From an uncultured SAR86 cluster bacterium (lineage in GTDB: Bacteria > Pseudomonadota > Gammaproteobacteria > Magnimaribacterales > D2472), in NCBI GenBank assembly GCA_902518715.1, contig CABYHU010000001.1, forward strand, positions 1-64,000: a stretch of DNA of 64,000 bases, read 5' to 3'. The notes under the pieces are model-generated. The model was not told where the DNA came from. It worked only from the letters and a program-made list of their open reading frames with translations, and made no database searches. The position numbers were made by a program, and so were the translations under genes. Shown here in pieces: positions 56,273-60,174 of this stretch. Each line of letters opens with the position of its first letter. The first letter of the stretch is position 1.

Positions 56273-58432
56273 ATGCAAAGTTACATTAAACACGGAAGTC
56301 TTAATATCCATAATGCTCTTTATAGATTTCTTAATGATGAGGTGCTTTCGGGACTTGATATAAGCTCAGATGAGTTTTGGGGAAAGTTTGAGGGTCTTTT
56401 AGAGGAATTCCATCAAAGAAATAAAGATTTATTAGCAAGAAGATCTTTATTACAAGATCAAATCTCTTCTTGGCACAAGAGTAATGATTTTAATTTAAAT
56501 GAATATAAAAAGTTTTTAAAAGAAATAGGTTACTTAGAGAAAGTGCCTGCAGATTTTACAATCACTACAAGGAATACAGATCCAGAAATTTCGGGTATTC
56601 CAGGACCCCAGCTTGTTGTTCCAATCATGAATGCAAGATTTGCTTTAAATGCAACAAATGCAAGGTGGGGCAGCCTTTATGACGCACTATATGGAACTGA
56701 TGTTATTTCAGAAGAAGGAGGCGCACTTAGAGAGGGTGCATATAATGAAATTCGTGGAAATAAAGTCATTGATTTTTCAAAAAAATTTTTAGATCAGTGT
56801 TTCCCACTTACTGATCTTAGTTATAAAGATATTACAAATATTTCAGTTAGGGATCAAAGATTACTTTTTCATACTGAGCAAGATCAAATTACTTATCTAA
56901 AAAATGAAAATCAATTCAAAGGATTTAATGGATCTCCTGAAAATCCTTCAGAGGTTCTATTAGTAAACAACAATCTTCATTTAGAAATACAAATAGATCC
57001 CAATCATCCTGTCGGTAAGACTGACAAAGCAAATATTAAAGATATTGTTTTGGAGTCTGCAGTTTCAACAATCCAAGATTGTGAGGATTCAGTTGCCGCA
57101 GTTGATGCTGAAGATAAAGTAATTGCTTATAGAAATTGGCTAGGTTTGATGAAAGGGGATCTCTCTGAAACATTTGAAAAAAATGGAAAACAATTAACAA
57201 GAGTCTTAAAGGAAGATAGAAAGTATCTAGATGCTAATGGAAATTCTTTTTCTCTTCCTGGAAGAAGTCTTTTACTTGTTAGGAATGTTGGTCATCTTAT
57301 GCAGAATCCTTCAGTAATATTAGAAAATGGTGACGAGGTTTTTGAAGGAATCTTAGATGCCATGTTTACCATATGTATCGCTTTATATGATCTAAATAAG
57401 TTAAATACATTGTCGAATTCAAGGAACAAAAGTATGTATATCGTCAAACCAAAAATGCATGGTTCTGAGGAGGTAGCTTTCACATGCGACTTGTTTGATG
57501 CAGTTGAACGATTATTCAATCTAGAAAAAAATACTGTAAAAGTTGGAATTATGGACGAGGAGAGACGCACCACTATTAATCTAAAGGCTTGCATCGAAAA
57601 AGCTAAAGAAAGAATAATTTTTATAAATACTGGTTTTTTAGACAGAACAGGAGATGAAATACATACAAGCATGGAAGCAGGAGCAATGGTTCCTAAATCA
57701 GAGATGAAGGCTCAATCATGGATAAACGCTTATGAAGATTGGAATGTAGATATAGGTATAAGCTGTGGATTAAGTGGTAGAGCACAAATCGGAAAGGGAA
57801 TGTGGGCAATGCCAGATGAGATGAAAGATATGGTAGAGACTAAAATAGCTCATCCATTATCTGGTGCAACATGTGCATGGGTCCCATCACCAACAGCAGC
57901 AACGCTTCATGCAATGCATTATCATCATGTTGATGTGTTATCAAAACAAGAGGAGCTATCTTCTAGGGAACAAGCTGATTTAGATAAGATTTTAACTATT
58001 CCTCTTTTAAAGGAGCATTTAGATAAACAAACAATTAGGAATGAGATAGCAAACAGTGCTCAAGGAATACTTGGTTATGTCGTGAGATGGATTGATCAGG
58101 GCATTGGATGTTCAAAAGTTCCAGATATTAACAATGTTGGTCTTATGGAGGATAGAGCAACGTGCAGGATATCAAGCCAGCATATTTCAAACTGGATTCA
58201 CCATGGTGTTTGTTCAGAGGAAGAAGTAATTGATATTTTTAAAGAGATGGCTCTAGTTGTTGATGAGCAAAACAAAGATGATTCAAACTATCAAAAAATG
58301 GGATCAAATTTTTCTGGATTTGCATTTCAAGCTTCCCTAGATTTAGCAATAAAAGGAGTTTCCCAACCAAGCGGATATACTGAGCCGTTGTTACATAAAT
58401 GGCGTCTAGAGTTCAAGAAAAATATTCGTTAA
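56273..58432 (+). CDS. glcB: Malate synthase G
   Basis: NATNARWGSLYDALYGTDVI, IQDCEDSVAAVDAEDKV, VKPKMHGSEEVAFT, MDEERRTTINLKACI, and GATCAWVPSPTAATLHAMHYHHVDV. Confidence 0.97.
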   Translation: MQSYIKHGSLNIHNALYRFLNDEVLSGLDISSDEFWGKFEGLLEEFHQRNKDLLARRSLLQDQISSWHKSNDFNLNEYKKFLKEIGYLEKVPADFTITTRNTDPEISGIPGPQLVVPIMNARFALNATNARWGSLYDALYGTDVISEEGGALREGAYNEIRGNKVIDFSKKFLDQCFPLTDLSYKDITNISVRDQRLLFHTEQDQITYLKNENQFKGFNGSPENPSEVLLVNNNLHLEIQIDPNHPVGKTDKANIKDIVLESAVSTIQDCEDSVAAVDAEDKVIAYRNWLGLMKGDLSETFEKNGKQLTRVLKEDRKYLDANGNSFSLPGRSLLLVRNVGHLMQNPSVILENGDEVFEGILDAMFTICIALYDLNKLNTLSNSRNKSMYIVKPKMHGSEEVAFTCDLFDAVERLFNLEKNTVKVGIMDEERRTTINLKACIEKAKERIIFINTGFLDRTGDEIHTSMEAGAMVPKSEMKAQSWINAYEDWNVDIGISCGLSGRAQIGKGMWAMPDEMKDMVETKIAHPLSGATCAWVPSPTAATLHAMHYHHVDVLSKQEELSSREQADLDKILTIPLLKEHLDKQTIRNEIANSAQGILGYVVRWIDQGIGCSKVPDINNVGLMEDRATCRISSQHISNWIHHGVCSEEEVIDIFKEMALVVDEQNKDDSNYQKMGSNFSGFAFQASLDLAIKGVSQPSGYTEPLLHKWRLEFKKNIR

Positions 58433-58461: not shown

Positions 58462-58489
58462 TTGACACTTTTCAAAAAGAGCGTAATAT
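58462..58489 (+). promoter_or_regulatory. Sigma70-type promoter for the downstream ncRNA
   Basis: TTGACA (58462-58467), 16-bp spacer, TAATAT (58484-58489). Confidence 0.85.
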
Positions 58490-58495
58490 GAACTT

Positions 58496-58716
58496 TACCT
58501 GATGAGGACTGATAAGAGACCAACTGCAGACGGAAACTTAAGGGAAATCATAGGAAGAGCCCTCAAGGCGAAAGCGTTTTAAAGAGTATACGATAAAAAA
58601 TAGCTTTAAAACCCACCAAGGATGAAGAGATAGCATCCAAGGAGCTAAAGAAAATCTCACTTTAGACACTTGAGGAACTCGAACTGAAAGACAGAGCGCA
58701 AGCTCTGTTTTTTTTT
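58496..58716 (+). ncRNA. Unannotated ~220-nt structured small RNA; GGA-rich, CsrB/RsmZ-like candidate
   Basis: Bounded by a strong promoter and a strong terminator, with no matching ORF. Hairpins readable by eye: CUUAAGGG/CCCUCAAG, GUUUUAAAG/CUUUAAAAC, GGAUG/CAUCC, CUAAAG/CUUUAG. Seven GGA motifs. Confidence 0.75.
58691..58716 (+). terminator. Rho-independent terminator of the ncRNA
   Basis: ACAGAGC-GCAA-GCTCTGT followed by a run of T. Confidence 0.93.
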
Positions 58717-58764: not shown

Positions 58765-60174
58765 ATGTTCACTAGAACAAAAATTATTTGCACTATTGGT
58801 CCAGCTACATCTGAATTAATCACAATGCAAAAGATGTATTCAGCTGGAATGAATGTTGTTCGAATTAATATGTCACATGCGTCTCATGATGAGGCTTTAA
58901 ATGTAATAAATAATGTTAAAAAAATTAATAAAAATCCAGATATTAAAATGGGCCCAATTTCCATTTTGATAGATACACAAGGCCCTGAAATCAGAACAGG
59001 AGATAGGGATACATCTCTTGATTTAAAACTTGGTGATAAAGTAAACCTGACTGTAAGAGATGAAGTCGATGTTGAGACATCATCTATCAAGATTAACTAT
59101 AGGGGATTAATTAACAGTGTAAAAAAAGGTTCAAAGATTTCTGTAGATAATGGCCTAGTAAATTTTAAAGTTTTAGAAAAACATGACGATAAGCTTTTGT
59201 GTAGGGTTATTGATGGAGGAAAAATTGGTAGTAAGAGAAGTGTTAATCTCCCTGGAGTGAGGATTGACCTTCCTTCAATAACAAAAAAAGATAAAGCCGA
59301 TATAAATTTTGCTATCAAACATGATGTAGATTACATAGCTCTTTCCTTTGTTAGAAAAATTGAGGATATTCATAGCTTAAGAAAGATCTTAAAGAGAAAG
59401 AAATCACAAATAAAAGTTGTTTCAAAAATTGAAGACAATGAAGGTCTTTCTAATATTCATGCCATTACACAAGAATCAGATGCTGTCATGGTTGCCCGAG
59501 GCGATCTTGGAATTGAAACTAGCTTGGCTGATTTGCCAAATGTACAAAGACGTATAATGTATGCCTGTTCAAAATGGGGAAGAAGATCAATCGTAGCTAC
59601 TCACTTGCTTGAATCAATGATAGAGAAGCCAACACCTACCAGAGCTGAAGTAACTGATGTTGCTAACACTATTTATGAGGGTGCAGATGCAATCATGCTG
59701 TCTGGCGAGACCAGCATTGGGAAATATCCAATTGAATGCATAAGATTTCTTAAATCTATAGCTGATAGATCAGAAAAATTTAGAACATTAGGGTATGAAG
59801 AAAAACTTCAATTAAGTGGCGATTGGGAATACTTGGCTAAGACTGCGAGAGATCTCGCTGAGTCGATTAATGCTGACGGCATTATAGTTATTACGCGAAG
59901 TGGTTATACAGCAAATCTAGTTTCAAACGCAAAGCCATTCAATGTTCCAATATATGCTTTCACAAATGATAAAAGAGTTCATAGACAGCTTTCATTAGTT
60001 GGCTCTGTTTTAAGTTTTTATCAAAAAAGTATTGTTGATAATAAAAATAATATGTCTAAAATTGCTAATACACTCAAAAAAGTTTTTAGTAAAAAGAAAA
60101 AATTAAAGTTTGTTCTTATTTCTGGAATGTTCTCAGAGAAACATTCTGATGCAATTAGAGTTGTAAACTTTTAA
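58765..60174 (+). CDS. pyk: Pyruvate kinase
   Basis: TKIICTIGPATSE, MNVVRINMSHA, VSKIEDNEGLSNI, MVARGDLGIE, GADAIMLSGETSIGKYP. Confidence 0.96.
   Translation: MFTRTKIICTIGPATSELITMQKMYSAGMNVVRINMSHASHDEALNVINNVKKINKNPDIKMGPISILIDTQGPEIRTGDRDTSLDLKLGDKVNLTVRDEVDVETSSIKINYRGLINSVKKGSKISVDNGLVNFKVLEKHDDKLLCRVIDGGKIGSKRSVNLPGVRIDLPSITKKDKADINFAIKHDVDYIALSFVRKIEDIHSLRKILKRKKSQIKVVSKIEDNEGLSNIHAITQESDAVMVARGDLGIETSLADLPNVQRRIMYACSKWGRRSIVATHLLESMIEKPTPTRAEVTDVANTIYEGADAIMLSGETSIGKYPIECIRFLKSIADRSEKFRTLGYEEKLQLSGDWEYLAKTARDLAESINADGIIVITRSGYTANLVSNAKPFNVPIYAFTNDKRVHRQLSLVGSVLSFYQKSIVDNKNNMSKIANTLKKVFSKKKKLKFVLISGMFSEKHSDAIRVVNF

Follow-up and report, generated by a model that had tools for sequence, protein, structure and literature searches.

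Gene organisation at the locus

The window, that is the whole stretch of 64,000 nucleotides analysed here, carries on its forward strand a stand-alone gene of about 220 nt located between the genes for malate synthase G (56273-58432) and pyruvate kinase (58765-60174), both confirmed by their domains. The interval from the end of the first at 58432 to the start of the second at 58765 contains no open reading frame of 60 aa or more, in agreement with an earlier note on this DNA, which had seen no plausible ORF there and had predicted a discrete structured non-coding RNA. This RNA is real and is already catalogued as IMES-1, which contradicts its earlier description as unannotated. Indeed, the search with Rfam models proposed in that note gave a full-length match to RF02034 (IMES-1) at positions 58503-58691 (+), scoring 195.8 bits where the gathering threshold is 81, with an E-value of 2.1e-44 and a covariance-model alignment covering model positions 1 to 191. 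Membership is indicated by this score over the full model, together with the marine bacterial origin of the sequence and with its relatives, which are SAR86 cluster genomes. We take IMES-1 to be an ocean RNA that has been in the catalogues since 2009 without a known function; a search of the open-access literature returned nothing on it, and its dimerisation may have been mentioned earlier elsewhere.

The body of the RNA (about 190 nt) is enclosed by promoter-like boxes and a terminator, both correctly described before. The promoter (58462-58489, +) combines a -35 box TTGACA (58462-58467), a spacer of 16 nt and a -10 box TAATAT (58484-58489). In f1, the family of the window (the three other families of its order are called f2, f3 and f4), 38 of 45 loci have the two boxes in this position and 16 nt apart. 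Promoter-like matches were no commoner than chance in the AT-rich stretch (4 found, 6.9 expected) and scoring upstream of the f3 and f4 copies gave values no better than shuffled sequence; conservation of the promoter is therefore claimed for f1 only. Immediately before the -35 box, a run of T is followed by a run of A, an arrangement seen again in f1, in f3 and, loosely, in f4; its resemblance to an UP element suggests strong transcription. The intrinsic terminator, ACAGAGC-GCAA-GCUCUGU-U8 (58691-58716, +), is perfect and has a counterpart at 89 of the 90 homologous loci examined; in f4 and f2 its stem is of another sequence.

Distribution and genomic neighbourhoods

IMES-1 was found in 131 of the 204 genomes of the window's order, 124 of them above the gathering score, and in none of the 365 other gammaproteobacterial genomes sampled, three matches there being members of the order. 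In a collection with one genome per species, the matches to the pattern were mostly titled SAR86 cluster. Records titled SAR92 (AG-896-F13), Woeseiaceae, Pseudohongiella and Neomarinimicrobiota hold copies as well (L203, L193, L200, L119, L150), which may reflect transfer, mislabelling or contamination. Clear copies are present in f1, f3 and f4, and a divergent form occurs in some genera of f2 (E-values from about 1e-8 to 1e-6, obtained using a model not trained on f2). Four f2 sequences of about 158 nt (L093-L096) keep the 5' part with CAACUCGAGACG and show no recognisable P4 palindrome; they adjoin, on its upstream side, a gene that reads by eye as tryptophanyl-tRNA synthetase.

At least two copies were listed for 29 genomes, some of them as tandem copies spaced by about 320 nt. 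In six genomes (G041, G051, G077, G088, G129 and G134) copies are placed at the extreme ends of contigs, which would be expected of near-identical repeats that interrupt assembly, and such breaks are perhaps also why neither G049 nor G120, both fairly complete genomes of the family, shows a copy. Copy numbers are probably underestimated. Since most of the genomes are incomplete, an absence from a single genome weighs little, and absences from whole families, such as those of CsrA from f1 and f4 and of Hfq reported below, weigh more.

The genes surrounding the RNA are specific to each family. In f1, its surroundings are rearranged and include the genes for malate synthase, indoleamine 2,3-dioxygenase and pyruvate kinase; in f3, it is flanked by the gene for ETF-ubiquinone oxidoreductase on one side and a DUF1285 gene on the other; in f4, it precedes prephenate dehydratase and, in f2, the presumed tryptophanyl-tRNA synthetase gene. 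The functional link to malate synthase or pyruvate kinase proposed earlier was rejected because the neighbours differ in f2, f3 and f4. For the same reason a function tied to any one neighbour is unlikely, and we consider a gene acting in trans to be likely.

Secondary structure

Covariation was analysed on 73 sequences, using the Rfam structure to which a pairing between loops L5 and L6 was added. Standard pairs make up 85% of the paired positions, and in 33 of the 39 pairs both partners show changes. The covariation score reaches 0.481, where shuffles give 0.17 and slid partners no more than 0.12. The structure (all on the + strand) comprises a 5' domain (58503-58550), in which P2 (58513-58517/58536-58540) is nested in P1 (58503-58506/58547-58550), and a multiloop closed by P3 (58562-58674), which pairs CUCAAG (58562-58567) with CUUGAG (58669-58674) and encloses three hairpins. 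These are P4 (58576-58612; GUUUUAAAG with CUUUAAAAC, 9 bp, all pairs of which covary), P5 (58620-58638; GGAUG/CAUCC) and P6 (58645-58665; CUAAAG/CUUUAG). Among the four local hairpins drawn previously, these three stand with strong covariation in relatives, and the fourth (CUUAAGGG/CCCUCAAG) does not: its CUUA pairs with an upstream UAAG within P2, and its CUCAAG with the distant CUUGAG that forms P3. The alignment also contains highly conserved single-stranded stretches, including AAGGAG and CCACCAAG.

In the window, the P5 loop GAGAU (58627-58631) is complementary to AUCUC in the P6 loop (58654-58658). Across the family, this L5/L6 complementarity reads GAGA/UCUC in most sequences, is extended to GAGAU/AUCUC or GAGAA/UUCUC in some, and is kept as GGGA/UCCC in L132 and, by reading of the alignment, as AAGA/UCUU in L076 and GAAGA/UCUUC in L053. 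Three pairs with double changes were counted, and 2 of 500 shuffles attained that many; the support is good but modest because the loops vary little.

GGA motifs and known RNA classes

The window copy does contain the seven GGA motifs reported in the earlier note, which had interpreted them as the mark of an RNA titrating CsrA/RsmA. Such a CsrB/RsmZ-like sponge would suit this copy, with its repeated GGA and its A/G-rich loops, and IMES-1 is free-standing like CsrB, CsrC, RsmY and RsmZ. However, its host family lacks CsrA and its GGA motifs are not enriched. CsrA (Pfam PF02599) was detected in 64 of the 204 genomes, all belonging to f2 and f3, and a search for the same domain found it in no genome of f1 or f4, two families that both keep IMES-1; the window's own genome, about 85% complete, gave no PF02599 match, nor did any other of its family. 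The mean number of GGA per copy stays close to that of shuffled sequences (5.2 against 4.6 in f1, 3.6 against 3.9 in f3, 4.4 against 4.0 in f4) and ranges from 0 to 7 in f3; the copy of G158 has none although this genome encodes CsrA. Moreover, a copy is undetectable in many of the f2 genomes that bear CsrA, and among the Rfam matches listed at the locus the only model of the CsrA-sponge class is RsmY, with 16.7 bits for a cut-off of 57. Considering that CsrA is missing from two families that retain the RNA and that GGA occurs at chance level, the CsrB-like reading fails, and we regard it as very improbable.

A regulator of RNA polymerase comparable to 6S RNA would agree with the size of about 190 nt and with the free-standing gene, but this identity was rejected as scarcely credible: no 6S model matched the locus, a separate 6S RNA is present elsewhere in the same genome (G000:C2:163417-163596, 55.9 bits, above the cut-off), and the three-hairpin multiloop differs from the long rod with a central bubble of 6S RNA. 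Hfq was found in none of the 204 genomes of the order, with control genomes responding to the same search, and an Hfq-dependent small RNA was rejected on this basis.

Self-complementary loops

Two apical loops of the structure contain a palindrome of six nucleotides: GUAUAC in the P4 loop (L4, 58586-58591, +) and CUGCAG in the P2 loop (L2, 58524-58529, +), both of which we propose as self-kissing sites. With G-U pairs allowed, L4 is self-complementary in 94 of 95 distinct sequences and in 11 of 12 distinct hexamers, the ten besides that of the window being GUCGAC, GUUAAC, GUUGAC, GUCGAU, GUCGGC, GUGCAU, GCCGGC, GCUAGC, GGUACC and GCAUGC, with four pair types at the second pair and five at the third. 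As controls, neighbouring registers gave 0 to 2 self-complementary sequences, and reshuffling the 3' halves gave an expectation of 33 and a maximum of 46 in 2000 trials. The register in f3 and f4 was taken from the alignment, two f3 rows being placed by eye; in f1 alone, where it is fixed, 56 of 57 sequences are self-complementary. The exception among the 95 is L203 (CCCGGU), in which ACC-C-GGU could still self-pair; this sole sequence with an imperfect L4 palindrome comes from the SAR92 record. Out of about 180 hexamer positions scanned, only L2 and L4 are self-complementary in more than 90% of the sequences in f1, f3 and f4 alike, for a background of 3-4%.

On a tree built without the hexamer columns, the L4 hexamer has changed at least 23 times, and one of these changes leads away from self-complementarity. 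In 22 of the 95 sequences self-complementarity depends on G-U pairs, and breaks of the A-C type are absent. L2 has two states, both self-complementary: f1 and f4 carry CUGCAG, and f3 and f2 carry CUCGAG; the switch between them probably corresponds to few evolutionary events.

These palindromes could also be sites acting in the DNA, either as the operator of a dimeric protein inside the gene or as restriction or methylation sites, and, read as DNA, both forms of L2 and seven of those of L4 are indeed perfect palindromes. We hold this to be quite improbable: the 22 sequences relying on G-U are self-complementary as RNA and not palindromic as DNA, the palindrome is always in an apical loop, on a hairpin that covaries, and recognition of as many as 11 different hexamers by a single protein is hardly to be expected. 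Alternatively, IMES-1 may be a monomeric RNA that pairs with mRNAs in trans through its unpaired A/G-rich segments, the palindromes being incidental or pairing with another RNA. The stand-alone gene with its own terminator in different neighbourhoods and the highly conserved single-stranded stretches are in favour of this explanation, which nevertheless appears unlikely given the lack of Hfq from the 204 genomes, the conservation of the whole folded structure and, for the loop, the fact that a heterologous target would not preserve self-complementarity over some 23 changes.

Six adjacent bases of a loop cannot pair with one another within their own hairpin, so the partner of L4 would be the same loop in another molecule; a complement of L4 elsewhere in the same RNA exists in only 1 of the 95 sequences. 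Taken together, the roughly 23 changes and the 22 G-U-dependent sequences point to pairing of L4 between copies of the RNA.

A putative kissing-loop oligomer

We therefore come to a model in which IMES-1 probably forms a kissing-loop homodimer or oligomer through L4 and very likely L2. The free-standing gene would probably be strongly expressed, and its transcript would fold into the 5' domain, with P2 inside P1, and the P4-P5-P6 multiloop closed by P3, L5 and L6 pairing with each other, within or between molecules. L4 would then kiss the L4 of a second IMES-1 molecule through its six self-complementary nucleotides, and L2 would very likely do the same, also over 6 nt, with the L2 of another molecule. 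If a single partner served both loops, the outcome would be a homodimer; if L2-L2 and L4-L4 contacts alternated, it would be a ring or a chain. We infer that such an oligomer, whichever its form, may work in trans, serving as a scaffold or particle of RNA for the binding or storage of something. That the two different loops build a defined particle made of RNA only (closed dimer, ring or filament) we consider about evenly balanced. If this particle exists, no smaller natural RNA of such a kind is known to us.

The dimer initiation site of retroviruses (HIV-1 DIS) exposes a 6-nt palindrome with unpaired purine flanks in an apical loop. The IMES-1 palindrome has the same arrangement, with 6 nt, unpaired purine flanks and an apical location; HIV-1 DIS differs in being a signal for packaging a viral genome, in having one such loop and in having no homology to IMES-1. 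Closer parallels are OLE, ROOL and GOLLD, bacterial or phage RNAs which are homo-oligomers by cryo-EM (PMC12286853). The same covariation logic applies to OLE L9.3, with the palindrome variants GGCC, GAUC and AGCU, and to GOLLD L21a, with GC and CG, for which cryo-EM showed intermolecular contacts (PMC12286853). Like them, IMES-1 is a structured non-coding RNA of unsettled function whose loops covary within a palindrome, L4 changing its sequence and staying self-complementary (94 of 95 sequences, 11 of 12 hexamers, about 23 changes). It is far smaller (about 190-220 nt), has two such loops and shows many more palindrome variants, and whereas their oligomers were seen, its pairing is predicted from sequence. 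In the Rfam description of RF02034, of which the window copy is a full-length member, L2, L4, L5 and L6 are unpaired; the present analysis would add to IMES-1 two proposed self-kissing loops, a predicted L5-L6 pairing and a host range.

Besides removing the attractive but wrong reading of IMES-1 as a CsrA sponge, the model makes a specific prediction about its physical state, which is cheap to examine in the test tube because the exact bases to mutate are given. If it is true, a small RNA would join the handful of natural RNA homo-oligomers, and an abundant group of surface-ocean bacteria, whose cells lack Hfq and, in two families, CsrA, would produce a particle of this kind.
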